This document shows, piece after piece, positions 1,507-38,777 of a DNA stretch of 39,035 nucleotides (position 1 is its first letter; every line of letters begins with the position of its first letter). A model generated the notes under the pieces. The model was not told the origin of the DNA. It was given only the letters and a program-made list of their open reading frames with translations, and did not search any database. The translations under genes and the position numbers were made by a program. The DNA is taken from positions 1 through 39,035 of IMG/VR virus record IMGVR_UViG_3300017917_002824; one strand, written 5' to 3'. The DNA is from a virus.

Positions 1507-2127
1507 ATGGAATTTTTAATTAACGAATCACAACTTAAACTAATTTTAAACGAGCAAGAGAGTTCTCGTATAACTGAGTCAATCAAACAAATGAATGATT
1601 ACACAGTAAATTTAGTTAAAAAACTTAAAACATTTTATGGATTAAATTTTAAAATGTTATTAACTTGGGGTGCGTCAGTTGGAGGTTTAATGATGCCGTT
1701 GGATAATTTTATAAAATCCGGAAATTTCAATTTAGATGACCAACAAGAGATATTGATATTAGGTGCGGTTGCATCAATACTTTTTTCTGAAAATCAAAGA
1801 AATATTACCACTTTACTGAAAAAAATAAAAGAAGATGGTTTGACTGATGTTTTTCAAATAATATTAAACAAAGGTGAAGAACTTAAAACATCTTTTGTTG
1901 AATTTCTTAGGTCGTTAAAAGTTAGTATTGGTAGTTTCATGGAAATGACCGCATATGCGTTTTTGATTCCAATCTTATTTGATGTTTTAAATGTGGCCAA
2001 CCAATCTACAAGTATAAGACAAGGTTCTTTACTAATTGCAGAAAGAATTCTTGCATCAGGATTGATTTTTATTGCCAGAGAAGCAGTATATAACCTTATT
2101 AGAAAAATAATAAAAAGGGTAAGTTAA
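1507..2127 (+). CDS. Tagged integral membrane protein
   Basis: Begins MEFLINESQLKL, a variant of the leader shared by 15 proteins here (Ile-Asn-Glu core, Glu at residue 7). The body has several hydrophobic stretches (about residues 48-66, 83-95, 140-165 and 175-195), suggesting three or four membrane segments or amphipathic helices, separated by charged helices; the C-terminus is Lys/Arg-rich. No enzymatic motif is visible. It has its own TATTTAT-N4-ATG start and ends in a hairpin shared with the convergent gene at 2128. If the leader is a packaging signal, this would be a virion-carried membrane-active protein; that is inference. Confidence 0.82.
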   Translation: MEFLINESQLKLILNEQESSRITESIKQMNDYTVNLVKKLKTFYGLNFKMLLTWGASVGGLMMPLDNFIKSGNFNLDDQQEILILGAVASILFSENQRNITTLLKKIKEDGLTDVFQIILNKGEELKTSFVEFLRSLKVSIGSFMEMTAYAFLIPILFDVLNVANQSTSIRQGSLLIAERILASGLIFIAREAVYNLIRKIIKRVS

Positions 2128-2140
2128 TTACTCACCCTTT
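2114..2140. terminator. Bidirectional terminator overlapping both stop codons
   Basis: AAAGGGT at 2114-2120 pairs with ACCCTTT at 2134-2140, with partial pairing inside. The hairpin contains the stop codons of both convergent genes (2125-2127 and 2128-2130). Confidence 0.65.
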
Positions 2141-3108
2141 AATATTTCTTGAATCACTCTTTCTTTTTGTTCTTCGGTTAATGAATGTTTATGTTGGTAT
2201 TTATCAAACCAATTTCTTACAATTGTTTCGAAATTTACATTTTTAACTTCTGACATCATCTTAAATCCTGCTCGTTGAGCACCTATTTCTTTTTCTTGAG
2301 TATAATATTTTTCAGATTCTTCAATTTCTTCCGGCATTTTCATCCCATCATTAATTTGTCTAATGTGTTCAATCTCATGTCTAACAGTTTCAATTAATTC
2401 CCCTGTTAAATCAATCATATCGTCTTTAGGTAAATTAGGATTTAAAACAACATTGATATAAATTACATCGTCATCATAATACAAATCACCATCAACCTCA
2501 AAATCATTCACATCTTCACTAATCTCTAAATCGAGGTCTAAAGTGAACCCATCGATTGGATGTTGAGTATAAACCATAAGATTCTCATCACCAAAATATT
2601 CCGGTAATGAAAATTCCCCAAATTCATTTTCGGATATAACTTTAAGAATGTCTCCAACCAAAAGTTTGGTTAAATCATTTAACTGATTAGTTGGATTTTC
2701 CGATTCGTTTAATTTCATAGGTTCTACTTCATTTATAACCCTTGTACATATAGTAGGGTAATTTATTGAAAATATTTTTAAAAACTCTTCTAATTTTTGG
2801 TCCATGACCCATCTTAATTGGTGGTAAGAATTGTCTGTCGTTGCAATTGGGACATCAGTACCATAGATACTACCATAAATTGAATACCATTTATCCGAAA
2901 CTTCATCAGTTTTCAAAATATATAAAGTGTATTGAACGAATGTTGTCCAATCACCAATACGAATATAATCTTTTGTTCCGGTTATTTCAACCTTTACATT
3001 GGTTTTTACATTATAATCTTCATCGTGAGTAGGTTGAACGACAACTTCAAAAGTATGATTTTGAAAAAATTGATTTAATCGGTCTATTATAGGTTTGATA
3101 TCTTCCAT
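2128..3108 (-). CDS. Two-domain protein with C-terminal HExxH metallopeptidase-like domain
   Basis: 326 aa. The C-terminal half has VRHEIEHIRQ (HEIEH, residues 244-248) and, about 25 residues later, KEIGAQRAG, whose Glu274 is a plausible third zinc ligand, so a gluzincin-like fold is likely. The N-terminal ~125 residues are separate and resemble the small strand-rich paralogs of the 22-36 kb array (beta-strands around FVQYTLYILK and WYSIYGSIYG). The junction carries MKLNESEN, which looks like the N-terminal tag placed internally (Leu-Asn-Glu). Substrate unknown. TATTTAT lies 5 nt before the ATG. No signal peptide, so it probably acts in the cytoplasm or in the virion. Confidence 0.82.
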   Translation of the reverse strand: MEDIKPIIDRLNQFFQNHTFEVVVQPTHDEDYNVKTNVKVEITGTKDYIRIGDWTTFVQYTLYILKTDEVSDKWYSIYGSIYGTDVPIATTDNSYHQLRWVMDQKLEEFLKIFSINYPTICTRVINEVEPMKLNESENPTNQLNDLTKLLVGDILKVISENEFGEFSLPEYFGDENLMVYTQHPIDGFTLDLDLEISEDVNDFEVDGDLYYDDDVIYINVVLNPNLPKDDMIDLTGELIETVRHEIEHIRQINDGMKMPEEIEESEKYYTQEKEIGAQRAGFKMMSEVKNVNFETIVRNWFDKYQHKHSLTEEQKERVIQEILKGE

Positions 3109-3113
3109 ACCAT

Positions 3114-3120
3114 ATAAATA
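3114..3120 (-). promoter_or_regulatory. TATTTAT promoter-like box, N5 before ATG
   Basis: Minus-strand TATTTAT, 5 nt, then the ATG at 3108. Confidence 0.5.
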
Positions 3121-3546
3121 CTACCTAAATGGTATTACTATTCCGGCACCATATCTAAACCCATCCATATAATTCACACCAACAACAAAATCGAAACCTC
3201 TATCAGTTTTGGTAAGTATTCTAAGAGGGTACGCTTTAACCCATACATCCGGTTTAAATTTAACTTCATCAATATATGTTTCCATGAATACACCGCCCAT
3301 AACACTAATTTTATGGTTGGTTAAACTCCCTCCAACACGATTCAACATTGACATCGGAGTGGTATAAATGTAGGGTTGAGGTAAAGTTGTTGTTATGTAA
3401 CCTCCAACATAAAATCCAACGGAAGTGTGATGGTTGTTATAAGTTGCAACAATTGTGTTTTGGTTTGGAACATACATGAAGTCCGCATCCTGAGACATTC
3501 CCAAAAATGGAATGATTAAAAATAAGAGTGAGTATATTGTTTTCAT
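3121..3546 (-). CDS. Secreted/outer-membrane small protein
   Basis: 141 aa with a clear signal peptide (MKTIYSLLFLIIPFLGMSQ; cleavage before or at Gln, as is usual in flavobacteria). The mature part alternates polar and hydrophobic residues (VGFYVGGYITTTL, RGFDFVVGVNYMDGFRYGAGIVIPFR) and ends in an aromatic-Arg terminus. This fits a small outer-membrane beta-barrel or a barrel fragment. It is preceded by a host-like TAAATTTG box rather than TATTTAT. It may alter the host envelope, but that is inferred only from location. Confidence 0.75.
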   Translation of the reverse strand: MKTIYSLLFLIIPFLGMSQDADFMYVPNQNTIVATYNNHHTSVGFYVGGYITTTLPQPYIYTTPMSMLNRVGGSLTNHKISVMGGVFMETYIDEVKFKPDVWVKAYPLRILTKTDRGFDFVVGVNYMDGFRYGAGIVIPFR

Positions 3547-3550
3547 AAAG

Positions 3551-3558
3551 CAAATTTA
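3551..3558 (-). promoter_or_regulatory. Host-type -7 box TAAATTTG
   Basis: Minus-strand TAAATTTG 4 nt before the ATG at 3546, matching the Bacteroidota TAnnTTTG element. No well-spaced TTTG -33 element. Confidence 0.4.
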
Positions 3559-4964: not shown

Positions 4965-5234
4965 TTATTCAAATTCCTCTATTTCAATTTTTAATTCATC
5001 AACACCTTTAATTACTCTGTGCCAAGCAAGTTTTGGTATAAAAATCTCATCATGATTTTCTAATTTGGTTGGCAATTCCTCATCCATTTGAAACATCCAA
5101 CCTCCTGATTCTACTATTTTAACTTTTCGGTCTTTTAAATCTTGATGCCATTTTAATTCATCAGAATCCACATCAGGGTTAAAAGTTCTAAAAAGTTTTC
5201 CGTCTTTTTCTATTTGTTCAAACGGATATTCCAT
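4965..5234 (-). CDS. Cupin-like small protein
   Basis: 89 aa from MEYPFEQ. The pattern ...DELKWHQDLKDRKVKIVESGGWMFQMD..., then ...IFIPKLAWHRVIKGVDELKI... reads as a small cupin-type barrel with His residues at the expected ends (WHQD and WHRV). Similar unnamed proteins occur in other phages. The start at 5234 is preferred over 5240 because the upstream gene's TAA overlaps it as TAATG, a typical coupling arrangement. Function unknown. Confidence 0.72.
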   Translation of the reverse strand: MEYPFEQIEKDGKLFRTFNPDVDSDELKWHQDLKDRKVKIVESGGWMFQMDEELPTKLENHDEIFIPKLAWHRVIKGVDELKIEIEEFE

Positions 5235-5860
5235 TACCATGAATTTGAAGAAGATAATCCTAATTGTTTTGCATATCGTCCAACATTACAAGACCAGTAT
5301 CCCGCAGTTGTTCTATCTTTCTTTTGGTCACATTTGTGTCTTGCCCTAAACGATTTAGCGGCACCTTTATTTCTATTTCTAACTTTTAATTTTGGGTCAC
5401 CAAATGTAACTTTTTTAACACCACCACCCGGTGTTTTAACATACACGGCGAATTTCTTAGGACCACCCGGAGTTCTAAATGGTTTGTTTAATTTTACATT
5501 TTTTCCTCGATGTTTGGCCTCTTCTAAAATATCTTCTTCAGTTTCGGTTTCATAAATAAATGGTGCGTCCAAATAAACATACTCATCACCAATTTTTACT
5601 TTAACCCCCAAATCAGATTCAACCATCATTCGGTCTTCTTCGTTTAAAGTTATTTTACCTTCATTCCAAAGTTTTCTAACTTCATTTACCAAATCAAAAT
5701 ACTTTTCAGAATAAGTTCTAAAAATATTATTAGTTAAACTTAAACCTTCATTAATGTGGTATTCCAATTCTTTTGAAACTTTAACTTCTTCATTTAATAT
5801 TAAACTTTTATCTAAATGGGAAATCAATGCCTCTTTTATTATTTTTCTTAAATTATCCAT
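5234..5860 (-). CDS. Protein with conserved basic Cys-containing C-terminal phage domain
   Basis: 208 aa. The last ~90 residues (KPFRTPGGPKKFAVYVK..., FGDPKLKVRN, KSFRARHKCDQKKDRT, AGYWSCNVGRYAKQLG) match a domain I recognise at the C-terminus of unnamed proteins of large tailed phages, sometimes annotated as prohead or virion associated. The FGDP, RARHxC and YWSC motifs are intact. The N-terminus (MDNLRKIIKEAL) is an amphipathic helix with Ile-Lys-Glu at residues 8-10, the helical version of the tag discussed in the findings; SLILNEE (Leu-Asn-Glu) follows at about residue 23. TATTTAT lies 12 nt before the ATG. Head-related role inferred, not shown. Confidence 0.8.
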   Translation of the reverse strand: MDNLRKIIKEALISHLDKSLILNEEVKVSKELEYHINEGLSLTNNIFRTYSEKYFDLVNEVRKLWNEGKITLNEEDRMMVESDLGVKVKIGDEYVYLDAPFIYETETEEDILEEAKHRGKNVKLNKPFRTPGGPKKFAVYVKTPGGGVKKVTFGDPKLKVRNRNKGAAKSFRARHKCDQKKDRTTAGYWSCNVGRYAKQLGLSSSNSW

Positions 5861-26571: not shown

Positions 26572-26573
26572 TA

Positions 26574-26957: not shown

Positions 26958-26962
26958 ATAAT

Positions 26963-26969: not shown

Positions 26970-26981
26970 CCACAGATAATA

Positions 26982-27164: not shown

Positions 27165-27182
27165 ATTTTCTATTTTTTTAAT

Positions 27183-27912: not shown

Positions 27913-27926
27913 AAATTATTTTTTGG

Positions 27927-27934
27927 TAAAGATA
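27927..27934 (-). promoter_or_regulatory. Host-type -7 box (TATCTTTA)
   Basis: Minus-strand TATCTTTA 14 nt before the ATG at 27912; one mismatch to TAnnTTTG. Confidence 0.35.
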
Positions 27935-27953
27935 TGAAATATTTTTCAAATAA

Positions 27954-27985
27954 AAAACCCTCCGGAGATGGAGGGTTATATTTTT
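27954..27985 (-). terminator. Rho-independent terminator
   Basis: AACCCTCC (27956-27963) / GGAGGGTT (27970-27977), with an A-run on the left (T-run on the minus strand). Ends the 27986-30150 minus-strand unit. Confidence 0.85.
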
Positions 27986-28351
27986 TTAACATTCAGATTT
28001 TATTCTTCTGACAGAGACAGGTATTTCAAACATATTGTAGATTTCATACCAAGTTATATCAACTAAATCCTCAGATTCATCTTTGGTGAGTGCTCTTGTA
28101 GTATTAATCCAAAGAGTTACAAAGTATTCGTCTTGACTGCTATGTTTATGAATTTCTGCCTTACAAATTAAATCATTTCCCGGAACCAAAATATTATCCA
28201 AGTAATTTTGAATTAAGTTTAATTTTCGATTCTCCTGAGTGTATTTAAATTCGGTTTCAATTATTATGGGAGTTTTATTTATCTTATGATGTAAATCCCA
28301 ATCAATAATTGATTCCCGTAATACTTTCTTTATGATTTTATTTAATTCCAT
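27986..28351 (-). CDS. Small strand-rich protein with helical tag, 121 aa
   Basis: MELNKIIKKVLRESIIDW: amphipathic helix with Leu-Arg-Glu at 11-13. Then TPIIIETEFKY, KAEIHKHSSQDEYFVTLWINT and ITWYEIYNMFEIPVSVRRI, the family B plan (A-E-I strand, FVTLWI strand, helix, final strand). Function unknown. Overlaps 28338 by 14 nt. Confidence 0.74.
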   Translation of the reverse strand: MELNKIIKKVLRESIIDWDLHHKINKTPIIIETEFKYTQENRKLNLIQNYLDNILVPGNDLICKAEIHKHSSQDEYFVTLWINTTRALTKDESEDLVDITWYEIYNMFEIPVSVRRIKSEC

Positions 28352-28661
28352 TTTTCTTTGATTTAATCAAATATTCAAAGTCGGACTTTTTTATTATCGT
28401 ACTTTGAATAACATTTAAAGGTTCCCCAATATACAAATTATAGTATTTCAAAATATTATCTTGCCACTTCCTCATAATTTTTGAACTATTTTTCTGGTCT
28501 TTCAATAATTCACTATCGTCAGGAACTATAAAGAAATAACTAATATAATCATATTCCGAAGGAGATTTTATTTGACGAATATAAACATACTCAACACCTT
28601 CCGGTTTGGCTATCGTGTTTGATATTTTTTCTAAAGTTATTTTTATATCCTTATTTGTCAT
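28338..28661 (-). CDS. Small strand-rich protein (family B-like), 107 aa
   Basis: From MTNKDIKITLEKISNTIAK; then VEYVYIRQIKSPSEYDYISYFFIVPDD and a helical C-terminus with basic tail. The ATG at 28661 is used rather than an upstream TTG because TATTTAT lies 5 nt before it. Untagged. Confidence 0.7.
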   Translation of the reverse strand: MTNKDIKITLEKISNTIAKPEGVEYVYIRQIKSPSEYDYISYFFIVPDDSELLKDQKNSSKIMRKWQDNILKYYNLYIGEPLNVIQSTIIKKSDFEYLIKSKKNGIK

Positions 28662-28666
28662 ATTCA

Positions 28667-28673
28667 ATAAATA
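28667..28673 (-). promoter_or_regulatory. TATTTAT promoter-like box, N5 before ATG
   Basis: Minus-strand TATTTAT immediately after the 28674 gene's stop and 5 nt before the ATG at 28661. Confidence 0.5.
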
Positions 28674-28937
28674 CTACTCGACGTGTTTTACATCATATTT
28701 ATTACTCATCTTAAACCATTTGGTGATTAAGTTGGGATAATTATTTTCGATAAATTTTGTCCCATATTTTTTTGATAAGGTCATTTTAACAACATCGGAA
28801 CTATAAATGGTTTGAGTTTTAATGTCATATAAAAAATGTTCATTGGTCCATGTCTGTTCGGCCTTATCATAAGTCATGTAAGGAAAACCAAATTTATCGT
28901 CAATTACTTTTATAATTTGTTTTTCTAATTGTGTCAT
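28674..28937 (-). CDS. Small hypothetical protein, 87 aa
   Basis: MTQLEKQIIKVIDDKFGFPYMTYDKAEQTWTNEHFLYDI..., helix then strands and a closing helix LITKWFKMSNKYDV that resembles the family A C-terminal 'WF..N.Y.V' ending without the tag. ATGA overlap with 28934. Confidence 0.68.
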   Translation of the reverse strand: MTQLEKQIIKVIDDKFGFPYMTYDKAEQTWTNEHFLYDIKTQTIYSSDVVKMTLSKKYGTKFIENNYPNLITKWFKMSNKYDVKHVE

Positions 28938-29317
28938 TGTAATGAAAATGAATTAATTTTTACTCTTCTGAAGCGTTGTGAGGGTAATCCGGTTTTAAAC
29001 TGATATTCCTCAGTTATTGATTCATAAAACATCGCACCTAAAGTTTTTATCTCAGATATGATTAAATCTTCAGGGTCCGGGTTTGGATAAAATATATTAG
29101 AAAATCTCCAAAATTCATCCCAATCATTATCAGCTCTTTTCTTAAAGTACTCCTCAAGTTTTGATTTACTCATGATTATTTTTATGGTTAATAATGTAGT
29201 ATATTGTGTTAAATCTACTATGTTTGGAGACGCATCAATAATAAATGGATATTTTTTACTTAAAACCCTAACCATCATTTCCAATCCTTTTTTTTGGTCA
29301 TCAGTCAATTCCATCAT
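28934..29317 (-). CDS. Small strand-rich protein (family B-like), 127 aa
   Basis: MMELTDDQKKGLEMMVRVLSKKYPFIID, then TQYTTLLTIKIIMSKSKLEEYFKK and a C-terminal LPSQRFRRVKINSFSLQ. The N-terminus (MELTDDQ) is tag-like but has Leu-Thr-Asp, not Glu. Start overlaps the 29314 stop. Confidence 0.68.
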   Translation of the reverse strand: MMELTDDQKKGLEMMVRVLSKKYPFIIDASPNIVDLTQYTTLLTIKIIMSKSKLEEYFKKRADNDWDEFWRFSNIFYPNPDPEDLIISEIKTLGAMFYESITEEYQFKTGLPSQRFRRVKINSFSLQ

Positions 29318-29823
29318 TCATCTTTTAAGTATTCTAATATTGTTTCCGAGCGTTGAGAACCAAAATGAATTTCTAAACTCATCCCATCAACCTCATACAT
29401 TGAAACTAATAAAGGTCTTAATTTAGCACGAATGTAAGCTTTAACTTTATCTTCAATATCCTCATCATAAAGTTCTGCCCTATGTGCCGGAGAAACAATA
29501 AATTTAATTTTTGGTGATTCAAATTTATCTCTCCCGTCAGAGTATTTAAATTTATTAACTCTCAAAAAAGATGTCTCAATTACAAAAGGAAATAAATTAC
29601 TAATAAATCTATTTAATGGAGTGACATCCAATTCAATAGTTTCTCCACCACCAAAATGAAAACCTACCGTGGATGATGGTACACCACCTCCCACTTGAGT
29701 TATTATAGGTCCTTGTCCCCAAGGTCCATTATTCGCTCGTTGTTGTTGTTCATAAAAACTCGGAGGTTCAGGTTGTGCTCTAAATCGTTCTATAAATCGA
29801 CTAATACTACTACTACTCGCCAT
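29314..29823 (-). CDS. Hypothetical protein with Gly-rich N-terminal segment, 169 aa
   Basis: MASSSSISRFIERFRAQPEPPSF, a Gly/Gln/Asn-rich section (29-58), strand ETIELDVTPLNRFISNLFPFVIETSF, then basic alpha/beta (FIVSPAHRAELY, DKVKAYIRAKLRPLLVSMYEVDGMSLEIHFG). The last part follows the family B plan (VDGMSLEIHFGSQRSETILEYL). Unknown function. Confidence 0.7.
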   Translation of the reverse strand: MASSSSISRFIERFRAQPEPPSFYEQQQRANNGPWGQGPIITQVGGGVPSSTVGFHFGGGETIELDVTPLNRFISNLFPFVIETSFLRVNKFKYSDGRDKFESPKIKFIVSPAHRAELYDEDIEDKVKAYIRAKLRPLLVSMYEVDGMSLEIHFGSQRSETILEYLKDE

Positions 29824-29826
29824 AAT

Positions 29827-30150
29827 TTACCAACTATATTTTATATATTCAATTCCAAACTTATCCCACACTCGATACACCGCTTCAACAAATGGTGTCG
29901 CCCATTCATCACCTTCTCTTTTTATCCATTCCAATTTAACATCCATTCTCTCATCGCAATCATTATGAACAATAGTTCCGTTAGTAATATCTTCTTGAAA
30001 ATACTCCAACCAAATGTGCCAACAATCTTTATATTCACCACCGACTATTTTATGGTAATCTCTAAAGTATTCTTCTTCAATACCCATTTCTTTACATATT
30101 TCTTTTTGGATATCAAACCACTCATAATATTCTACCGTATGTTTTTGCAT
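29827..30150 (-). CDS. Conserved phage hypothetical protein, 107 aa
   Basis: MQKHTVEYYEWFDIQKEICKEMGIEEEYFRDYHKIVGGEYKDCWHIWL, then FVEAVYRVWDKFGIEYIKYSW. The 'IQKEICKEMGI...YFRDYH.IVGG.YKD.WH.WL' and 'RVWDK..IEYI.YSW' blocks recur in unnamed phage proteins as I recall. Likely cytoplasmic. Host-type promoter upstream, unlike the tagged genes. Confidence 0.8.
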   Translation of the reverse strand: MQKHTVEYYEWFDIQKEICKEMGIEEEYFRDYHKIVGGEYKDCWHIWLEYFQEDITNGTIVHNDCDERMDVKLEWIKREGDEWATPFVEAVYRVWDKFGIEYIKYSW

Positions 30151-30165
30151 GATATAAATTTTTCA

Positions 30166-30197
30166 CAAAGATATGAAAATGAAATGATATAAACAAA
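30166..30197 (-). promoter_or_regulatory. Host-type promoter TTTG-N20-TATCTTTG
   Basis: Minus strand: TTTG (30197-30194) and TATCTTTG (30173-30166) before the ATG at 30150. Confidence 0.65.
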
Positions 30198-30225
30198 AAA
30201 AAAACCTCACTTATGTGAGGTTAAT
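30194..30225 (-). terminator. Rho-independent terminator
   Basis: AACCTCAC (30203-30210) / GTGAGGTT (30215-30222) with an A-run to the left; ends the unit above and overlaps the -33 of the next promoter. Confidence 0.82.
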
Positions 30226-30228
30226 TAT

Positions 30229-30345
30229 TTAAAGTTCGTTTTTTAAACGACTAAGAACTTCATTGTTGTTATTCATCAACTTTAATTTTTTAACAACATT
30301 TCTTCGGTTCTTTTTTGGTTTCCCTTCTTTTTTTGATTTTGACAT
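30229..30345 (-). CDS. Very small basic protein, 38 aa
   Basis: MSKSKKEGKPKKNRRNVVKK, then a short helix KLKLMNNNNEVLSRLKNEL. Eleven Lys/Arg in the first 20 residues; resembles a nucleic-acid-binding or ribosomal-like peptide. A clean ATG-TAA frame directly before a terminator supports it. TATTTAT lies 15 nt upstream. Confidence 0.6.
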   Translation of the reverse strand: MSKSKKEGKPKKNRRNVVKKLKLMNNNNEVLSRLKNEL

Positions 30346-30360
30346 GATAAGTATTTTATA

Positions 30361-30367
30361 ATAAATA
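30361..30367 (-). promoter_or_regulatory. TATTTAT promoter-like box, N15 before ATG
   Basis: Minus-strand TATTTAT ahead of the 38-aa gene. Confidence 0.35.
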
Positions 30368-30373
30368 TCTTAA

Positions 30374-30730
30374 CTATAAATTACTCGGTAATCCAATATT
30401 TGTTATTTGAGTTATAAATCCTAAATCTATTAGTATTGGTATTGCTTCACTTCCACCATTAAATTTTAAGTAAGGTATTATTAGTTTTCTTAATTTCAAA
30501 TCTGTCTCTTCGTCCCATTCCAATGAAAATGTATTTAATAAACCATAAAAATCATTTTTATTTAACCTTAAATAAGTTGTATTTTCTTTCAAAATTTTAG
30601 CAACCGGACTCCCATCTCTATACCAAATAACCTCGTCAGGATTTATCTTACAAGTTAAATCGTTATATAAATTATTAATATATAGTTTTATTAAACTTTC
30701 TAATTTTTCTTCTTTGATAATATACTTCAT
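30374..30730 (-). CDS. Tagged small protein, family A variant, 118 aa
   Basis: MKYIIKEEKLESLIKLYINN (Ile-Lys-Glu core), then YNDLTCKINPDEVIWYRDGSPV and TTYLRLNKNDFYGLLNTFSLEWDEET, the family A middle, but a divergent C-terminus (IPILIDLGFITQITN). Function unknown. TATTTAT-N4-ATG. Confidence 0.78.
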   Translation of the reverse strand: MKYIIKEEKLESLIKLYINNLYNDLTCKINPDEVIWYRDGSPVAKILKENTTYLRLNKNDFYGLLNTFSLEWDEETDLKLRKLIIPYLKFNGGSEAIPILIDLGFITQITNIGLPSNL

Positions 30731-30734
30731 AATG

Positions 30735-30741
30735 ATAAATA
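30735..30741 (-). promoter_or_regulatory. TATTTAT promoter-like box, N4 before ATG
   Basis: Minus strand TATTTAT-CATT-ATG (30730), starting right at the stop of 30742. Confidence 0.58.
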
Positions 30742-31053
30742 CTAATAAGGAACAATTAGTTTTTTGGAACCAAAATCATTATGAATCTCACGACAAATTT
30801 CCATAATATCACTTACATCTAACCCCAAATATTTAAATAACTTAAACATCTCATCACAATTTCCCATAATACGAGAATAGTGTTCATCAACATCATCATC
30901 AATTAAAAGCCTGACAGGTAATTTATCCATAAATTTGTTTTTATCGGTCGGCATAAGGATTAATTGAATTTTCTCATTATTCCGATATTTAATACCGATA
31001 ATTGTGGCACTTTCAACTTCAAAAAATGTTAAAAATAATTCTTTATTTGTCAT
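30742..31053 (-). CDS. Small hypothetical protein, 103 aa
   Basis: MTNKELFLTFFEVESATIIGIKYRNNEKIQLILMPTDK, then RLLIDDDVDEHYSRIMGNCDEMFKLFKYLGLDVSDIMEICREIH; strands followed by helices, acidic. Untagged. Host-type TATATTTG upstream. Family not recognised. Confidence 0.68.
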   Translation of the reverse strand: MTNKELFLTFFEVESATIIGIKYRNNEKIQLILMPTDKNKFMDKLPVRLLIDDDVDEHYSRIMGNCDEMFKLFKYLGLDVSDIMEICREIHNDFGSKKLIVPY

Positions 31054-31073
31054 AACTTAAGTGATTCATTATG

Positions 31074-31081
31074 CAAATATA
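31074..31081 (-). promoter_or_regulatory. Host-type -7 box TATATTTG
   Basis: Minus-strand TATATTTG 20 nt before the ATG at 31053; the terminator next to it leaves no clear -33. Confidence 0.45.
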
Positions 31082-31119
31082 CAAAAAAAATCCCACCGGC
31101 AATGGTGGGATGTATTTTT
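31081..31119 (-). terminator. Rho-independent terminator
   Basis: ATCCCACC (31090-31097) / GGTGGGAT (31104-31111), flanked by A8 and T-rich tracts; ends the 31124-32446 unit. Confidence 0.87.
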
Positions 31120-31123
31120 TTTA

Positions 31124-31387
31124 TTAAAATTGATTCGGGTCGTAGAAAAAAGTTCGTTCAAAATACTCATTTTTGTCTAAAAGATATTTTGATAAATTTT
31201 TAACCTTATCTTTTAATATTTCTTGTTGTTTACTATCTAACTCAAGTAAATCACTATATTTTATTCCAAGACCGACACGATAGTTGGTCCAAGTACCCAA
31301 ATCTGTAGAGGAAACAACTATACCCATAATCTGAGGATATTCATCCTTCAACATTGTAAGTAATAATTTTTTTAACGCTTCTTCCAT
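31124..31387 (-). CDS. Small strand-rich protein (family B-like), 87 aa
   Basis: MEEALKKLLLTMLKDEYPQIMGIVVSSTDLGTWTNYRVGLGIKY, then helix and FERTFFYDPNQF: helix, V-V-S strand, loop, Y-R-V-G-L-G-I strand, helix. Untagged. Last gene before a terminator. Confidence 0.66.
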   Translation of the reverse strand: MEEALKKLLLTMLKDEYPQIMGIVVSSTDLGTWTNYRVGLGIKYSDLLELDSKQQEILKDKVKNLSKYLLDKNEYFERTFFYDPNQF

Positions 31388-31393
31388 TAAATG

Positions 31394-31690
31394 TTAATTA
31401 TAAAATCCTTCACTAACGGGTTTTCCGTCAAATATGTGCCAAACCGCACTATAATTTGTATCAATACTATCAGTATAATGGTAATACCCATTCCCAACAA
31501 CATCGGTTAATTCAGGATTACTATAAATTGTTTGTGTTATTTGCAAACAAGGATAGCAATTACCAACAATTTGATTACAATCATCACATAGACCCAAATC
31601 TTCCACATAGATTGTAAATGTTGGAGTTAAATTGATAAACACATCTTCTTTTGTACTGGCAGAAGAAACCACAAAACTTATTACTGACAT
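31394..31690 (-). CDS. Small protein with two CxxC pairs, 98 aa
   Basis: MSVISFVVSSASTKEDVFINL, then LGLCDDCNQIVGNCYPCLQI (C-x-x-C and C-x-x-C, zinc or disulfide), VVGNGYYHYTDSIDTNYSAVWHIFDGKPVSEGFYN. The repeated aromatic GxGYYxYTD pattern looks like an adhesin or tail-fibre segment; no signal peptide. The ATG at 31690 is used; an earlier in-frame start is less likely since a TATTTAT box lies 17 nt upstream of 31690. Confidence 0.68.
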   Translation of the reverse strand: MSVISFVVSSASTKEDVFINLTPTFTIYVEDLGLCDDCNQIVGNCYPCLQITQTIYSNPELTDVVGNGYYHYTDSIDTNYSAVWHIFDGKPVSEGFYN

Positions 31691-31707
31691 GATATTATAT
31701 TTTAACA

Positions 31708-31714
31708 ATAAATA
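31708..31714 (-). promoter_or_regulatory. TATTTAT promoter-like box, N17 before ATG
   Basis: Minus-strand TATTTAT 17 nt before ATG 31690. Confidence 0.32.
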
Positions 31715-32056
31715 TCAAACATAAATTATTTCTTTAAAATAAGATTCACTAAACATATTCGACAATGAGGAATCAATAAAAAAATCACAAGATTTGATAT
31801 TACATTCTTCAAAATAATTTGAAACATATTCTCGGACATAATCACTAATATCTCTTTTAATTATTCCAAATTTCCATGACCCCTGAGATGTGATATATTC
31901 ATAATCCTCAGGGTTAATTGTGATATGTATGATTAATAAATAACTTTGAGACCATGTGGAAAAACTATCTACATAAATACGCCATTCACAAACCCATTCA
32001 GGTTTGAGATGTCCCATCATTAAATTAATAAGTCGTTGTAATCTAACTTCATTCAT
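31715..32056 (-). CDS. Small strand-rich protein (family B-like), 113 aa
   Basis: MNEVRLQRLINLMMGHLKPEWVCEWRIYVDSFSTWSQSYLLIIHITINPEDYEYI..., same plan as 27183 and 31124 (helix, W-R-I-Y-V strand, loop, Y-L-L-I-I-H-I strand). C-terminal Cys-rich part (EECNIKSCDFF). Untagged, operonic with 32062. Confidence 0.68.
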   Translation of the reverse strand: MNEVRLQRLINLMMGHLKPEWVCEWRIYVDSFSTWSQSYLLIIHITINPEDYEYITSQGSWKFGIIKRDISDYVREYVSNYFEECNIKSCDFFIDSSLSNMFSESYFKEIIYV

Positions 32057-32061
32057 GGAAT

Positions 32062-32274
32062 TTAATTTTCGGATATTACTGAAATAGTTTCTTCGTCAAT
32101 ATACATTTCATCAATATCCCATAACCCAACGGAATGCCACAGACAATATTTCTGTTCTCTACCTCGGGTTATGGTGACCTTGGTTCCTTTTGGAATTTCA
32201 ATTATGTCGTCAGGGTGCTCATATTTCTCGGAAAGTAATAACCTTCTTTTTAGATTTGCCTCCGCAGCCCACAT
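32062..32274 (-). CDS. Small hypothetical protein, 70 aa
   Basis: MWAAEANLKRRLLLSEKYEHPDDIIEIPKGTKVTITRGREQKYCLWHSVGLWDIDE...; the DDIIEIPKGTKVTI and HSVGLWDIDE parts read as a short SH3-like beta-barrel. Preceded 4 nt after the stop of the 55-aa gene upstream. Unknown role. Confidence 0.65.
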   Translation of the reverse strand: MWAAEANLKRRLLLSEKYEHPDDIIEIPKGTKVTITRGREQKYCLWHSVGLWDIDEMYIDEETISVISEN

Positions 32275-32278
32275 AATA

Positions 32279-32446
32279 CTATTCTAAAATTTTCTTACCT
32301 AAAATAATTGGAGATGCAGTTTGGTTTTTACTCACGGTAAAATGGGTGTCGTGTTCTTTAATAAACATTGGAGTGTCCGGAGTAAATGTTTGTTTGTAGT
32401 GAGATAATACATAATCTCTAACTTTGTTTTCAACTTCTTGTGTCAT
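32279..32446 (-). CDS. Very small hypothetical protein, 55 aa
   Basis: MTQEVENKVRDYVLSHYKQTFTPDTPMFIKEHDTHFTVSK, then NQTASPIILGKKILE. Acidic helix then a short strand-rich end. Clean ATG-TAG frame with a host-type TATCTTTG box 27 nt upstream and close spacing to the next gene, so it is probably real. Absent from the longer-ORF list because of size. Confidence 0.6.
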   Translation of the reverse strand: MTQEVENKVRDYVLSHYKQTFTPDTPMFIKEHDTHFTVSKNQTASPIILGKKILE

Positions 32447-32473
32447 GATATTTTATATTTTTAAATTACACGA

Positions 32474-32481
32474 CAAAGATA
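32474..32481 (-). promoter_or_regulatory. Host-type -7 box TATCTTTG
   Basis: Minus strand TATCTTTG before the 55-aa gene; TTTG on the upstream side at a 25-nt spacing. Confidence 0.5.
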
Positions 32482-32523
32482 AAAAAATATTTTGGAATAA
32501 AAAAAACAAATTTATAATAAAAG

Positions 32524-32530
32524 TATTTAT
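32524..32530 (+). promoter_or_regulatory. TATTTAT promoter-like box, N4 before ATG
   Basis: TATTTAT-CAAT-ATG (32535) on the plus strand within a minus-strand region. Confidence 0.6.
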
Positions 32531-32534
32531 CAAT

Positions 32535-32927
32535 ATGGGAACACATATAGTAAATTTTATAAAAAACAATAATTTTTGGTTTGCAGATTTTACCGAAACC
32601 AGTTTAACACCAAATATTAATGGAGTTAATCAAAGAAAACTTCTCCCACTAACTCGTAATGGTTGGGATGAGTGGGTTGAAATAGTGTCTGAAGGTAGTG
32701 ATAATTTTTGGGCGACAGTATCTAATACAAAAATTATTGGTGGGACTGAAATTAAATATCTTAACCAAACAACAACAAGTCCTAATCAAAACCAATGTGG
32801 TAATTGTTATGAATTTACATCATATAAAGGAGTCGATTATAACATAAAATTTTGGATTTGTTCAAATGGATTAGATTTTGTTTTTAACGAAACTCCATCA
32901 TCTTGGTTTTTTAGACGAGAATACTAA
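32535..32927 (+). CDS. Hypothetical protein, 130 aa
   Basis: MGTHIVNFIKNNNFWFADFTETSLTPNINGV, then SDNFWATVSNTKIIGGTEIKYLNQTT, QNQCGNCYEFTSYKGVDYNIKFWICSNGLDF. Strand-rich with two Cys pairs (C-x-x-C and W-I-C-S), no signal peptide. The start at 32535 is chosen for its TATTTAT-N4-ATG; the earlier ATG lies before that box. The only plus-strand gene in this region; end overlaps 32924. Confidence 0.7.
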   Translation: MGTHIVNFIKNNNFWFADFTETSLTPNINGVNQRKLLPLTRNGWDEWVEIVSEGSDNFWATVSNTKIIGGTEIKYLNQTTTSPNQNQCGNCYEFTSYKGVDYNIKFWICSNGLDFVFNETPSSWFFRREY

Positions 32928-33232
32928 GATTCAACATACACAACAACAAACCCAAATTCATTTTCAAACCAATTGGTTAAATATTCATAAGCATTTTCAT
33001 CATCACCAAAAAACATATCCGAAAATGATTTCATAAATCCGGAATCAACGTATAATCTCCCATCTTCCCTATCATACTCCAACCAAACATCATTCTCCCA
33101 TTCATCATTATTTTCACTATTGGTACTTGATATTGTTATAAAATCACCAAAGGCCTCGACATTTATTGATTTTGATTTAAGATAAGAAGATTTAAATTCA
33201 TCCAAACGGCTTTCACTTATAATGTATTTCAT
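32924..33232 (-). CDS. Tagged small protein, family A, 102 aa
   Basis: MKYIISESRLDEFKSSYLKS (Ile-Ser-Glu core), then WLEYDREDGRLYVDSGFMKSFSDMFFGDDE and YLTNWFENEFGFVVVYVES: the full family A signature. ATGA overlap with the preceding gene 33229; the last of three tagged genes in tandem. Confidence 0.8.
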   Translation of the reverse strand: MKYIISESRLDEFKSSYLKSKSINVEAFGDFITISSTNSENNDEWENDVWLEYDREDGRLYVDSGFMKSFSDMFFGDDENAYEYLTNWFENEFGFVVVYVES

Positions 33233-33543
33233 GATTGGTAAATTTTATATATGTTAATTCCATAATTATCCGAAAACCATTCTTCTAATATTCTCATAGC
33301 TCTAAAATATCCCAAATCAAAAACATTTTCAAGAAGATTGACAATATGTTCTTTAAGTCCTGGTGTTTCAATATATAAATTACCGGAATCTGTGGAATAA
33401 TAAAAAACCACCTTTTTGTTTTCATCGACAAAATACTTAATATTGTTTTGTGGTGAATCAATTTCTCTCAACCCTCCGAAATAACCGGAGATATATTTTG
33501 AAATTGAAATGTCGAATTGACTTTCTGTTATAATGTATTTCAT
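33229..33543 (-). CDS. Tagged small protein, family A, 104 aa
   Basis: MKYIITESQFDISISKYISG, then FGGLREIDSPQNNIKYFVD, VVFYYSTDSGNLYIETPGLKEHI, and MRILEEWFSDNYGINIYKIY. Family A. ATGA overlaps at both ends. Confidence 0.82.
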   Translation of the reverse strand: MKYIITESQFDISISKYISGYFGGLREIDSPQNNIKYFVDENKKVVFYYSTDSGNLYIETPGLKEHIVNLLENVFDLGYFRAMRILEEWFSDNYGINIYKIYQS

Positions 33544-33866
33544 GATTCACAAGGTAATGGATTCACATATGTTCCAACATATAGATAAATCCCCATATAA
33601 TTGTTTATTTTTTCCTTAAAATCCTTAACATATTTACGAATTTTAACATTTTTAAGGTCCTTTTCCAAAGGATTTTCCAAATACCAATCTTTATCAATAA
33701 CTAAATAACAATAAAAATTATTATCTTCTTCATCATATCCCGTATCTAATTCGCAAATCCCTTCCATACCCATAGATTCATACAGATTTTTTATCATTTT
33801 GACGATAAATTCAGGTTTTTTTGTTTGAATTGTGGAGAATTGTTCTTCCGTTATAATGTATTTCAT
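33540..33866 (-). CDS. Tagged small protein, strand-rich (family B-like), 108 aa
   Basis: MKYIITEEQFSTIQTKKPE, then EGICELDTGYDEEDNNFYCYLVIDKDWYLE, IRKYVKDFKEKINNYMGIYLYVG. The same leader as its neighbours but a family B body, direct evidence that the leader is modular. ATGA overlap with 33229. Confidence 0.8.
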   Translation of the reverse strand: MKYIITEEQFSTIQTKKPEFIVKMIKNLYESMGMEGICELDTGYDEEDNNFYCYLVIDKDWYLENPLEKDLKNVKIRKYVKDFKEKINNYMGIYLYVGTYVNPLPCES

Positions 33867-33867
33867 A

Positions 33868-34197
33868 TTACCAAGTTTTCATTAATTGGAGGTCAAATCG
33901 AGTATTAGGATTAAATATTCTTTCATCACCCACTTTATCAAAAACAAATTGTTTATAAATTTTTAAAATTTGTCTCGTATTCAACCCAAACATATTTTCC
34001 AACATATTATAATCGGATTTTTTGATTTTAATTAACCCATCAACCCAATCATATTCAAATGACTTATCTCCATCTTTTTCATATGAATAATAAACTTCCT
34101 GACTATTACCATAGGTTACAGGTCTTCTTCCGGATTTTTTATATCCGGCATATAATGTATTTAAATAATTATAACCAATCTCTTCCAATCTATTCAT
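33868..34197 (-). CDS. Untagged family A paralog, 109 aa
   Basis: MNRLEEIGYNYLNTLYAGYKKSGRRPV, then EVYYSYEKDGDKSFEYDWVDGLIKIKKSDYNMLENMFGLNTRQILKIYKQFVFDK. Retains the family A 'YLN.LY.G..... I.K....LENMFGL' middle but starts directly at the helix, without MKYIITE. TATTTAT-N4-ATG. Confidence 0.75.
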   Translation of the reverse strand: MNRLEEIGYNYLNTLYAGYKKSGRRPVTYGNSQEVYYSYEKDGDKSFEYDWVDGLIKIKKSDYNMLENMFGLNTRQILKIYKQFVFDKVGDERIFNPNTRFDLQLMKTW

Positions 34198-34201
34198 ATC
34201 A

Positions 34202-34208
34202 ATAAATA
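34202..34208 (-). promoter_or_regulatory. TATTTAT promoter-like box, N4 before ATG
   Basis: Minus strand TATTTAT-TGAT-ATG (34197). Confidence 0.58.
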
Positions 34209-34223
34209 CTCGGAATAATTGAT

Positions 34224-34562
34224 TTACTTCGCAGAAAACAATTCCATCATAATTTCTCGATTTGTCTTTTTTGGTTCATCAATAAAACTTCTCACGGTAA
34301 ATTTTATGAAATCAATATCCGGATAAGTATATGTAAATGCGGTTGTAATATCATCACCATATTTTTGACGCAATGGTAAATGATTTCCATATTTTTCAAG
34401 TTTTAATTTAAGATGAATTGTAAATTTTTCAACAGGATTAAAGTCAATTGGGTTATATAACATAATTGTTTCAACATCATGAACTTCAATTTCTTCAATC
34501 TCTTTATAAAGTTTTTTAACTACAACTTTAAACTCTTCGGGTATTTTATATTTTTGTTCCAT
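34224..34562 (-). CDS. Small strand-rich protein (family B-like), 112 aa
   Basis: MEQKYKIPEEFKVVVKKLYKEIEEIEVHDVETIMLYNPIDFNPVEKFTIHLKLKLEKYG... and DIDFIKFTVRSFIDEP. Family B plan (I-E-V-H strand, FTIHLKL strand, FIKFTVRSF). Similar to the N-terminal domain of the 2128 peptidase-like protein. The ATG at 34562 is used rather than an upstream TTG. Confidence 0.7.
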   Translation of the reverse strand: MEQKYKIPEEFKVVVKKLYKEIEEIEVHDVETIMLYNPIDFNPVEKFTIHLKLKLEKYGNHLPLRQKYGDDITTAFTYTYPDIDFIKFTVRSFIDEPKKTNREIMMELFSAK

Positions 34563-34589
34563 AATCAATAATAATACATAAAATAAAAT

Positions 34590-35627: not shown

Positions 35628-35924
35628 TTAAGCACACATATTTTTATAATATTTAACCAAGTAATCACGGAAATTATCAACGAAATAATGGTAAAGTGCG
35701 TCTTTTTCTTTTGGTTGTAAAACATAATCAAAATCGTTCACAAAATAATCGTGATACATTTCAACTAAAGAATCACAAGCATCTCCAATAAATTCACCAA
35801 CATCATCATAATTGCAAACTTTCATATCATTCATTAAATTTTTGAATGGTAATCTTCTTCGGACCTCAGGTGGTAATGATTCCGTTAATAAACTATATTG
35901 AGATTCAGTTATAATATATTTCAT
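35628..35924 (-). CDS. Tagged small helical protein, 98 aa
   Basis: MKYIITESQYSLLTESLPPEVRRRLPF, then VCNYDDVGEFIGDACDSLVEMYHDYFVNDFDY, LYHYFVDNFRDYLVKYYKNM. The family A C-terminal helix is recognisable but the middle is helical and Cys-containing. Also contains a second Leu-Thr-Glu at about residue 13-15. Confidence 0.78.
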   Translation of the reverse strand: MKYIITESQYSLLTESLPPEVRRRLPFKNLMNDMKVCNYDDVGEFIGDACDSLVEMYHDYFVNDFDYVLQPKEKDALYHYFVDNFRDYLVKYYKNMCA

Positions 35925-35931: not shown

Positions 35932-36270
35932 CTAATTTGTAATGTTCCTCCACACAGCAGGAGCTGCTATAATAGGCTTGTTTGTTGTTTTCACTCTTAA
36001 TTTGTAATGTTCCTCCACCCATTCTTTTGTTAGATATTGTATTTCTTTATATTCCAACCCAAAAAAGGATTCCAAAAATGACCAAATGTCATAAGAGATA
36101 TAAACATCCTTATTTTTTTTATTGTAATCAAAAATAACTTCATCATCTTTCATAAAGAAAATGTGGTTAGGCTCTCTGTCCGTTTTATATGGAGTTAAAT
36201 CACCATAATTAATGTTAAGGTATTTCAATACTGCTCGGTCTAATTGACTTTCTGTGATAATGTATTTCAT
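35932..36270 (-). CDS. Tagged small protein, family A, with duplicated 3' end, 112 aa
   Basis: MKYIITESQLDRAVLKYLNI, then NYGDLTPYK, EVIFDYNKKNKDVYISYDIWSFLESFFGLEYKEIQYLTKEWVEEHYKLRV. The relatives end here; this protein goes on with TTNKPIIAAPAVWRNITN, whose last six residues are the VEEHYKL codons read in another frame, because a 21-bp segment is duplicated (see repeat). The extra tail is therefore likely a recent insertion. Confidence 0.8.
   Translation of the reverse strand: MKYIITESQLDRAVLKYLNINYGDLTPYKTDREPNHIFFMKDDEVIFDYNKKNKDVYISYDIWSFLESFFGLEYKEIQYLTKEWVEEHYKLRVKTTNKPIIAAPAVWRNITN
35933..36018 (-). repeat. 21-bp direct repeat flanking a 44-bp insertion
   Basis: Identical 21-bp segments at 35933-35953 and 35998-36018 (core TGTAATGTTCCTCCAC) surround 44 bp that include a palindromic AGCAG-GAG-CTGCT. 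The duplication adds a C-terminal tail to the tagged gene at 35932. Confidence 0.7.
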
Positions 36271-36273: not shown

Positions 36274-36546
36274 TTAGATTTCTTTAACTCGGGCTGAAGT
36301 GGAATAAACGGGAACACCAAACATATCTTCAAGGTTTTGAGATAAAATATGTTTGTAAATGTGATGTGGGAACTTATTTTTACTTTTCACATAAAATGTG
36401 GGATAAATTATATACTGACCTCTTTCGGGTAAGTATTCAATCTCAACATCGGTGCGAATTACTCGTTCCTCAGAATATTGATTGGCGAAATTTTTCATCA
36501 ATTTAATAATTCGTTCATTCTGTTCTTCTGTAATTATTACTTTCAT
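36274..36546 (-). CDS. Tagged small strand-rich protein (family B-like), 90 aa
   Basis: MKVIITEEQNERIIKLMKNF, then TDVEIEYLPERGQYIIYPTFYVKSKNKF, HILSQNLEDMFGVPVYSTS: tag plus family B body (V-E-I-E-Y strand, YIIYPTFYV strand). TATTTAT-N4-ATG; heads the unit 36274 > 35932 > 35628. Confidence 0.8.
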   Translation of the reverse strand: MKVIITEEQNERIIKLMKNFANQYSEERVIRTDVEIEYLPERGQYIIYPTFYVKSKNKFPHHIYKHILSQNLEDMFGVPVYSTSARVKEI

Positions 36547-37726: not shown

Positions 37727-37729
37727 ATT

Positions 37730-38134
37730 TTAATTGTTTATGGTAAAAATATCATCCAACATTTCTTCATTGAATTTTACATTATGTCTATCTTCAAAAT
37801 GTTCCAATAGTAATTCCATTGAATTTGTATAATTCTTTTCTTTTAGAAGGTGGTAAGCACCCAAGTCCGCCTCAAGTTCGTGTTGGTCGTTTCTTGGTCC
37901 ATCGTGGCCAAACAAAATATGAGCAACCTCATGAGCTTCAATAAATTTCAAAATATCTTTTGCGTTGGACTTTCCAACCAATATCTCACCATCGATGATG
38001 ATAAGATTTTTATCCGGAACCATAAATCCAAAACCATATTCCTCAAAAAAAGGTTTAACTTGAGGATATTGTGGGTCATCATTAAAAACAACCGCAACAA
38101 CCGCATCTTCCAAAAATTCGCTATTATATTCCAT
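37730..38134 (-). CDS. ImmA/IrrE-like zinc peptidase-fold protein
   Basis: 134 aa. KFIEAHEVAHILFGHDG carries HEVAH (68-72), followed by DQHELEADLGAYHLL, where Glu-x-x-Ala-Asp is the typical third-ligand region of the ImmA/IrrE-type (M78-like) family. Relatives cut regulators or repressors; here the target is unknown. It has a good host-type promoter (TTTG-N19-TATCTTTG), unlike the tagged genes around it. Confidence 0.82.
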   Translation of the reverse strand: MEYNSEFLEDAVVAVVFNDDPQYPQVKPFFEEYGFGFMVPDKNLIIIDGEILVGKSNAKDILKFIEAHEVAHILFGHDGPRNDQHELEADLGAYHLLKEKNYTNSMELLLEHFEDRHNVKFNEEMLDDIFTINN

Positions 38135-38151
38135 ACTTCTTAATTAGATTA

Positions 38152-38182
38152 CAAAGATAATGAGAATTATTTTAACTGCAAA
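38152..38182 (-). promoter_or_regulatory. Host-type promoter TTTG-N19-TATCTTTG
   Basis: Minus strand: TTTG (38182-38179), 19 nt, TATCTTTG (38159-38152), ATG at 38134. Confidence 0.7.
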
Positions 38183-38211
38183 AAAAAACCTCCCAAATTG
38201 GAAGGTTATTC
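38180..38211 (-). terminator. Imperfect terminator hairpin
   Basis: AACCT-CC / GG-AGGTT with one mismatch, beside an A8 run (T8 on the minus strand); ends the 38206 unit. Confidence 0.6.
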
Positions 38212-38478
38212 TATACCAAAAATCGGATTACCCGGAAAATGGTCTCTCATATAGTGAAGTACTAGTTCATTAGTCCTTTCACCAAACATTTGATTTAATC
38301 GATATTCTGTGGCATAATCACCATAATAAAAATGGTCCTTCAACAAATACCCAAATATTTCTCTATTTGGTAAAATAAACTCACGGGTATTAAGGTTATA
38401 ACTCATATCACCATACATGGATTCCATATAGGTATTAAAAAGTTTTTCTAATCGGTCTTCAGTTATAATGTATTTCAT
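38206..38478 (-). CDS. Tagged small protein, family A variant, 90 aa
   Basis: MKYIITEDRLEKLFNTYMES, then MYGDMSYNLNTREFILPNREIFGYLLKDHF, LNQMFGERTNELVLHYMRDHFPGNPIFG. Family A middle and a divergent end. ATGA overlap with 38475. Its last codons overlap the terminator. Confidence 0.8.
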   Translation of the reverse strand: MKYIITEDRLEKLFNTYMESMYGDMSYNLNTREFILPNREIFGYLLKDHFYYGDYATEYRLNQMFGERTNELVLHYMRDHFPGNPIFGIE

Positions 38479-38777
38479 AATTCTCTCTCAAATCTCATTC
38501 GTTCCAATTTATACCCATAAGTTTGATTTATAAATTTCAAAATTATTTTCGACATTTCATCACGATTCATATTCATCGCATCCATGAAAAAATTTTTAAC
38601 TTCATCCGATATTTCCAAAACTTCTTTATTTGGACTTATTTGGAAATATCCCCGAGTATTATCATCAATTAAAATGGTATAACTTCCCGACTGATACTTT
38701 TTCAAATCAGATAAATTTTCTTTCAACCAATTAAGGGCAAACTTGGTTAATCTTGATTCAGTTATAATATATTTCAT
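38475..38777 (-). CDS. Tagged small protein, family A, 100 aa
   Basis: MKYIITESRLTKFALNWLKE, then SGSYTILIDDNTRGYFQISPNKEVLEISDEVKNFFMDAMNM and ILKFINQTYGYKLERMRFE. Family A. Begins 3 nt after the 38781 gene ends, so the same mRNA is likely. Confidence 0.8.
   Translation of the reverse strand: MKYIITESRLTKFALNWLKENLSDLKKYQSGSYTILIDDNTRGYFQISPNKEVLEISDEVKNFFMDAMNMNRDEMSKIILKFINQTYGYKLERMRFEREL

Follow-up and report, generated by a model that had tools for sequence, protein, structure and literature searches.

In phage T4 the prohead protease gp21 cuts after L/I-x-E, Asp at this place inhibits the processing of internal protein III (IPIII), and the internal proteins (IPs) are described as basic, as far as the accessible part of that account goes (PMC9026906). 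For SPN3US, the accessible part of a similar account gives a protease site A-x-E, several propeptides of more than 100 residues, and eight of about 50 head proteins found cut (PMC5694885). Here we analyse a 39,035-base virus record (IMG/VR IMGVR_UViG_3300017917_002824; 30% guanine plus cytosine, an incomplete genome), hereafter the window, in which many proteins begin with a short peptide of the type MKYIITESQ, which we call the tag or, together with its relatives, a leader. Our analysis shows a set of short, interchangeable N-terminal leaders with a near-invariant Glu that end, as judged from sequence, in the cut consensus of the head protease of T4, and shows that the larger contigs bearing them carry that protease. 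We think it probable that these peptides are N-terminal capsid-targeting propeptides, cut by the T4-type prohead protease S77, with the cargo kept in the head, and the best reading of the whole would be that the T4 capsid-targeting sequence (CTS) occurs here in a greatly enlarged version.

At 80.5% identity, the first 685 bases of the window match Flavobacterium phage immuto in its thymidylate synthase region; immuto is a T4-like phage encoding S77, gp20 and gp23. The closest large relative of the window found is G003, a 309-kb IMG/VR record which on our comparison is largely collinear with it: 50 of the 83 window genes have matches there, at 66% mean identity and with their order mostly kept. 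G003 also encodes S77, gp20 and gp23. A further genome used below is G017 (304 kb). Within the 39-kb window no match to S77 was found, and since the window is a fragment this absence cannot count against its phage. From immuto and from the accessible part of PMC9723584 we infer a host among the Bacteroidota.

The original prediction had listed 15 tagged N-termini, all of which we find in open reading frames, and had placed Glu at residue 7 in 13 of them, as we do too; in the other two it stands at residue 10 (19760, MGNKKFTITES) and at residue 11 (23481, if the ATG at 24182 is taken as the start; a TTG at 24218 opens the longest frame). The pattern M-x3-[ILV]-x-E-[SEQ] starts 12 of the 84 window open reading frames that begin with ATG, against a mean of 0.37 and a maximum of 4 in 2000 within-protein shuffles, and [IL][STKN]E[SEQ][QREK] begins at residue 5 in 12 window proteins and never between residues 16 and 100. 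When proteins below 75 residues and signal-peptide-like N-termini are left out, 43 pairs (16 of 60 proteins) have a common N-terminal 12-mer without detectable body similarity, against 0, 0 and 0 pairs at three internal control positions. The earlier claim that the bodies differ needs a correction, since many of the tagged proteins of about 100 residues are related: there is a direct match (2e-9) between those of 35932 and 33229, and that of 38475 is joined to both through common homologues, in what we call the A3 family. Leader-like starts also occur beyond the 15, at 25987 (MKEAIRHILKEYLNE), 27986 (MELNKIIKKVLRE) and 5234 (MDNLRKIIKE), and perhaps at 21933. In five longer window tags a second [ILM]-x-E lies 8-13 residues past the first (ILNE/Q, LQE/K, MIE/Q, LTE/Q and LTE/S, where the slash marks the expected cut), and there the junction of leader and body looks like the second site rather than the first. 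The window features are these:

1507-2127, plus strand: leader MEFLINESQLKLILNE/ with a 206-residue protein; relatives keep this leader type (MEFLITEAQLKTILTE/Q in G003, MNSNFIITEEQKKLIINE/S, MKVVISENQNKLLLTE/G).
5234-5860, minus strand: leader-like MDNLRKIIKE/A with body, beyond the original 15; homologues begin MNNIKQIVRRVISE/T (G017) and MKNNKIISE/G.
16690-17670, minus strand: leader MKIKITESQYKLYLQE/ with a 326-residue protein; one homologue in G017 (2e-7) begins MKNIKLSEKELINMIERIIKE/E.
19760-20260, minus strand: leader MGNKKFTITESEIESIKKMYMIE/ with a 166-residue protein; the leader is kept in relatives of 90% and 87% identity, and more distant ones have other N-termini with [IL]xE deeper in (MRRLVKESDIRKALYKIIKE, MKKRSINSDIIRNTLKKYISE); the structure model is uninformative (predicted local distance difference test, pLDDT, 47).
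21933-22331, minus strand: possible leader MKVIVKQNQLSKFLTKFLSE/, without Glu at the first place.
22849-23214, minus strand: MKYIITE/SR with a 121-residue protein; the best G003 match is 87.6% identical, with an identical leader.
23481-24182, minus strand: leader with a glucosaminidase-like domain (PF01832 at residues 108-214, 3.1e-5, a weak match under the curated cut-off); the best G003 match bears the same leader.
25987-26571, minus strand: leader MKEAIRHILKEYLNE/, of another dialect, with a 194-residue body; the best G003 match has MKEQIRNILKNYLNE/, with the second Glu retained and the first lost.
26574-26957, minus strand: leader MKYILSEEQYNFLTE/ with a 127-residue protein; homologues have MKYIITESQYGKLIE/Q and MKYIITESQYNKLTE/K.
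27986-28351, minus strand: leader MELNKIIKKVLRE/, of another dialect, with a 121-residue body; in G003 (near 283069) this leader heads a 471-residue protein in which the homologous stretch lies further in, which reads as deletion or fusion behind a fixed leader.
30374-30730, minus strand: MKYIIKE/EK with a small protein, without homologues among the loci compared.
32924-33232, minus strand: MKYIISE/SR with a small protein; 20 homologues (E <= 1e-5) among the loci compared.
33229-33543, minus strand: MKYIITE/SQ with a small A3-family protein.
33540-33866, minus strand: MKYIITE/EQ with a small protein; the best G003 match (73%) starts MEYIITE/SQ.
35628-35924, minus strand: leader MKYIITESQYSLLTE/ with an RRRL-type body; homologues have leader ends LLNE/N and ALME/Q.
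35932-36270, minus strand: MKYIITE/SQ with a 112-residue A3-family protein.
36274-36546, minus strand: MKVIITE/EQ with a small protein; the best G003 match (70%) starts MKYIITE/QQ.
38206-38478, minus strand: MKYIITE/DR with a small protein.
38475-38777, minus strand: MKYIITE/SR with a small A3-family protein.

On comparison with related phages, the window tag is one dialect among at least five leader types, 7-24 residues long and ending in [I/L]-x-E. Short tags (MKYIITE/S) have a single site. Two are present in the longer KYIITESQYxxLxE/ and RLTESDLxRIVxRVINE/, where the body joins at the last of them. We wrote this leader grammar as regular expressions of six types, five of which occur in G017, and it matched 54 of 397 genes in G017 and 37 of 432 in G003; reversed proteins gave 0 and 5 matches, respectively, and internal segments 1 and 1. 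A test free of the grammar, with the exclusions given above for the window, found 77 of 321 G017 proteins with an N-terminal 12-mer common to an unrelated body (292 pairs, against 11, 0 and 5 in controls) and 18 of 165 in immuto (16 pairs, against 1, 0 and 0). By one count or the other, G003 and G017, the two phages of about 300 kb, have about 37-77 leader genes, most of which lack a Pfam match. The same test gave no clear excess in T4 (a mutant clone record), PTm1, crAss001 or phi14:2, a slight one in RM378 (4 pairs against 0, 0 and 0), and 9 pairs against 4, 6 and 6 in P-SSM2.

How freely do leaders and bodies combine? After removal of the first 24 residues, the proteins of the loci examined cluster into 1071 body families. 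Tagged members occur in 205 of these; at least two leader types are found in 14 families, and tagged members side by side with untagged ones in 42. KYIITES stands on 122 body families and RLTESDL on 66, in a count where diverged relatives may be counted separately. The bodies of MKYIISENQYNFLLE/GLHDTSW and MNLQEQISRIQSMMGVINE/GLHDTSW are alike directly past the Glu, one genome holds both MKKIIRLTESDLTRIVNRVINE/NQEEVD and MKYLITESQYEILIE/NQKYVD, and a single body family has LLLNE/AVGVPEG, VLRE/AVGIPEG and LINE/ALGVPES. Such examples come from 12 pairs chosen by eye, about 9 of which have, again by eye, a clean junction. When a rule instead picks the pairs (for each body family and combination of leader types a single pair, with body identity of at least 40%, which 8 of 21 pairs pass), mean identity is 0.18 before the junction and 0.50 after it, and is greater after it in 6 of the 8. 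Moreover, the leader of L077_7595 precedes a body that its untagged paralogue L077_4130 starts directly, and in immuto a deoxyribonucleotidase match begins at residue 21, behind an N-terminus ending LLLEE/S. Bodies with an Arg-rich RRRL or RRRV motif soon after the leader (window 35628; L060 1827; L106 10333) are widespread and occur with several dialects.

Because the loci compared here were retrieved through the tag, residues 1-9 of one gene or more in each locus are biased; the remaining genes and leader types did not enter this selection. N-termini at most two mismatches from MKYIITES (106 exact, 169 inexact) have a constant Glu7, only I, L or V at residue 5, and their greatest freedom at residue 8 (S, T, N, R, E, Q, D and others). 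The [L/I]-x-E end is partly built into the grammar, and we made the following tallies with the residue before the cut left open: M[KR][YIF][IVL][IVL][TS]X has Glu at X in 242 of 244 cases, the RLT-X-SDL context in 85 of 85 and its second site in 80 of 81, and NLQExIxRILRX in 25 of 26. The exact Asp-for-Glu form of the tag occurs in 0 IMG/VR contigs, as does a scrambled peptide of the same composition. By eye, capsid proteins of leader phages (6 distinct proteins) have ENQAS[FHY]LINE/[AS] ahead of the conserved Gp23 region. The S77 proteases of these phages have, again by eye, FLQE/S, IIKE/S or FLNE/N shortly before the conserved domain. The T4 head proteins contain FLTE/A (gp23), LLRE/S (gp24) and TITE/A (internal head protein), which we take to be the exact cut places. 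As far as sequence likeness goes, then, the leader-end consensus resembles both the capsid site of the relatives and the published gp21 rule.

The original prediction would have fallen with the absence of a prohead protease from the genome, and among relatives it withstood that check: of the 42 contigs with leaders that reach 107 kb or more (all distinct contigs of this size among the matches listed), 34 encode S77. The 8 contigs without it also lack the gp20 portal, so that the head region seems to be missing from them. In the 25 of the 42 that were searched, gp23 was found in 18, and 2 of the 7 negatives have S77 within 3 kb of a contig end. All 19 leader contigs of at least 200 kb have S77, a figure without a base rate and in which three contigs (G010, G022 and G025) look near-identical. 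The HK97-type capsid PF05065 was found in 0 of 22 leader-phage contigs. In G017, 53 of the 54 grammar-matched leaders lie within the first 120 kb (217 genes) and 1 among the other 180 genes, which by eye hold head, tail and many replication genes; immuto has leader-like N-termini around its head genes. Two side observations belong here. In immuto (L003, 23355-25468) small genes beside the protease have leader-like starts, in roughly the place, between gp20 and gp21, that the core proteins take in T4, and in G017, near 135003 on the minus strand, a short leaderless gene inside the portal/protease cluster resembles ribosomal protein bS21 by eye.

The motif search that had been proposed for related phages found ATG-started MKYIITE-[S and a few others]-[QE] in at least 119 IMG/VR stretches. 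The tag goes with large genomes: among 80 matches listed there are 25 distinct contigs of at least 117 kb, and among those listed for a random 15-mer control a single contig of at least 100 kb. A slightly wider pattern matched 26 of 28 records, with 7 occurrences in the window and no match in immuto or T4, and its reversal matched none of the 28; since 25 of these contigs were preselected for the tag, only the reversed control, the window count, immuto and T4 are informative. A leader search in cultured phages found none, though the short KYIITES core may fall below its sensitivity; its positive control recovered immuto alone (4 records). We rejected a cellular origin of the tag: a collection of genomes from 84,980 species gave 2 matches, both 17-residue chance frames overlapping other genes, and S77 was not found in either of those two genomes. 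On one further locus (L090 2929, minus strand) a KYIITES-like start, MKILITKEQ, has Lys in place of the first Glu, and the later part of the protein matches L055 1010, lysozyme-like by eye, a possible packaged peptidoglycan hydrolase.

What, then, would be the cargo? At E <= 0.001, 2 of 51 tagged G017 proteins match Pfam, with DUF6576 only, against 18 families of one member each for 51 roughly length-matched untagged proteins (the tagged set being 51 of 58 picked, and the untagged set matched in length to the shorter of those 58). among the tagged proteins of G017, PHROGs gave 4 families of one member each, none with a named function; 10 of the 15 tagged window proteins have weak or unrelated matches only; and PADLOC gave only weak DrmE and SspC matches. 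Pfam and PHROGs found no body match to a named T4 head-protein family, a direct comparison with the T4 IP sequences not having been made. In the A3 family (46 members aligned) M1, K2 and E7 are invariant and the leader is the most conserved part, most members being only 22-40% identical to the window protein. The model of 35932 is a compact alpha-beta domain (pLDDT 90.5) with its first helix at residues 7-22 and no regular structure ahead of it, as expected if MKYIITE is removable. This fold has no PDB match at E <= 0.001 and 8 BFVD matches at that threshold, every one an uncultured phage protein. Intermixed with the small tagged genes of the window, at 22520-34568 on the minus strand, is a further set of leaderless proteins of about 100 residues (for instance 22520, 28934, 31124, 31715 and 34224), by eye a helix followed by a strand-rich part.

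Ahead of the start codons the heptamer TATTTAT recurs, with preferred distances of -11 to -13 and -20 to -23 in G017 and of -11 in the window. In immuto it precedes the terminase, portal, sheath and tape-measure genes among others, and it is possible that it acts as a late promoter; we take it to be the reverse complement of the T4 late box. In G017 it stands upstream of 32 of 76 tagged genes and of 62 of the 321 others, a significant enrichment (p = 7e-5).

On the basis of sequence comparison, the packaging tag of the original prediction gains support and can be refined: it belongs to a set of at least five leader types that are interchangeable. In the sequence of events that we infer, cargo would be made with a leader of 7-24 residues, which would bind the prohead core during head assembly; S77 would then cut after the Glu of [I/L]-x-E at the leader end, as expected on the capsid protein, and the mature bodies would remain in the head with the DNA, both steps being suggested by consensus and homology. 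Several dialects appear to move between bodies. The likely purpose, and the least certain step, would be to let tens of small, rapidly evolving proteins enter the host on infection. More tentatively, and with the scales tipped slightly against it, one may imagine a protein-packing code in which freely swapped dialects address tens of different effectors to the prohead, perhaps in different copy numbers or to different places. The capsid would then serve to inject proteins in bulk, and the genome sequence would reveal which ones.

Several results weigh against capsid targeting. The tagged bodies are acidic, with median isoelectric points of 5.2 (G017), 5.6 (G003) and 5.2 (window), untagged proteins having 5.6-5.7. 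S77 occurs in 3 of 13 leader contigs of 52-97 kb and equally in 3 of 13 random contigs of 50-102 kb (13 of 14 listed leader contigs of 50-100 kb were counted, one of 50,016 bases being left out); we rejected co-occurrence as a decisive argument for this reason, and regard it as consistent with the idea and not as strong evidence. Phages with S77 and no such leader system exist: leader sharing exceeds the controls barely or not at all in T4, PTm1 and P-SSM2, and only slightly in RM378, and S77 is thus no predictor of the system. The junction was not seen in 2 of the 8 swap pairs chosen by rule. The enrichment of TATTTAT misses significance for the window, with 8 of 19 against 14 of 64, and is absent in immuto (3 of 23 against 27 of 198). 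Finally, synonymous codon variation had been taken as selection on the peptide, an argument that proves weak. The tag codons do vary, but in 13 genes compared with their best G003 matches (one of which, 27986, aligns outside the leader) the ratio of synonymous to non-synonymous change does not differ between leader and body: 51 identical, 16 synonymous and 23 non-synonymous leader codons against 686, 400 and 475 in the bodies (p = 0.62).

The alternative that survives best, though we consider it unlikely, is that the leaders are uncut docking peptides for another phage structure (replication, transcription or membrane) and that [I/L]-x-E is a helix cap. By eye, several leaders could pass for short amphipathic helices, the cargo lacks a basic character, and tagged genes are often clustered among small genes, like early genes. 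However, docking leaves unexplained why the leader end resembles the capsid protein's own site, why Glu is found but not Asp, and why bodies of different leader types usually meet directly past the Glu. It is a good deal less plausible that the tag is the conserved N-terminus of one old paralogous family with diverged bodies. This is partly true for the A3 family, yet even there the leader is the most conserved part of otherwise divergent proteins, and the spread of KYIITES and RLTESDL over so many body families, together with the families of mixed leader type and of mixed tagged and untagged members, argues against it. That the conserved element is DNA or RNA, a promoter or ribosome-binding context with the peptide as by-product, seems highly improbable, for although TATTTAT stands at preferred distances ahead of many start codons and the codon ratios of leader and body are alike, tag codons vary, 44 of the 76 tagged G017 genes lack an upstream TATTTAT, and leaders of different sequence have mainly the [I/L]-x-E end in common.

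If capsid targeting is the true explanation, N-terminal sequence would tell which proteins a group of large phages injects, yielding candidates for anti-defence and takeover functions that escape domain searches, the T4 principle would grow from four proteins to tens per phage, and new leaders would become available for loading proteins into phage heads. Since immuto is cultured, the idea is testable now.

In PMC open full text (without subscription papers or preprints), we noticed among the matches listed no leaders of this sort beyond T4, P1, phiKZ and SPN3US, and the string "MKYIITE" occurs there in 0 papers. Of a similar kind are the bS21-encoding freshwater Bacteroidetes phages, with genomes of up to 331 kb and a prohead protease/portal/capsid cluster; unlike here, leader peptides are not described in the accessible part of that paper, whose authors suggest that bS21 itself might be packaged (PMC9723584). 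In phage P1, as would be the case here, an N-terminal stretch of DarB (30 residues) suffices to package a reporter in the head, but the accessible part of the account reports no consensus among Dar N-termini and describes no gp21-like site (PMC9024508). PhiKZ and SPN3US likewise have many head-packed proteins and a prohead protease cutting after Glu, in the accessible parts of PMC5694885 and PMC13282480, whereas the leaders here are short and of few common kinds, a distinction drawn from published descriptions and not from sequence comparison. The closest likeness is to the T4 CTS (IPI, IPII, IPIII and Alt, with gp21 as S77), which has a short N-terminal leader, the L/I-x-E rule and different bodies, with an S77 protease and a gp23-type capsid in the same phages or their relatives. 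Where T4 is described with four CTS proteins, in the accessible part of PMC9026906, each of two genomes of about 300 kb here would have 37-77 such genes; and unlike the T4 CTS, the leaders here come in at least five interchangeable dialects, often with two sites each, on an acidic cargo which, save for the weak glucosaminidase of the window, has no named match among the proteins examined.

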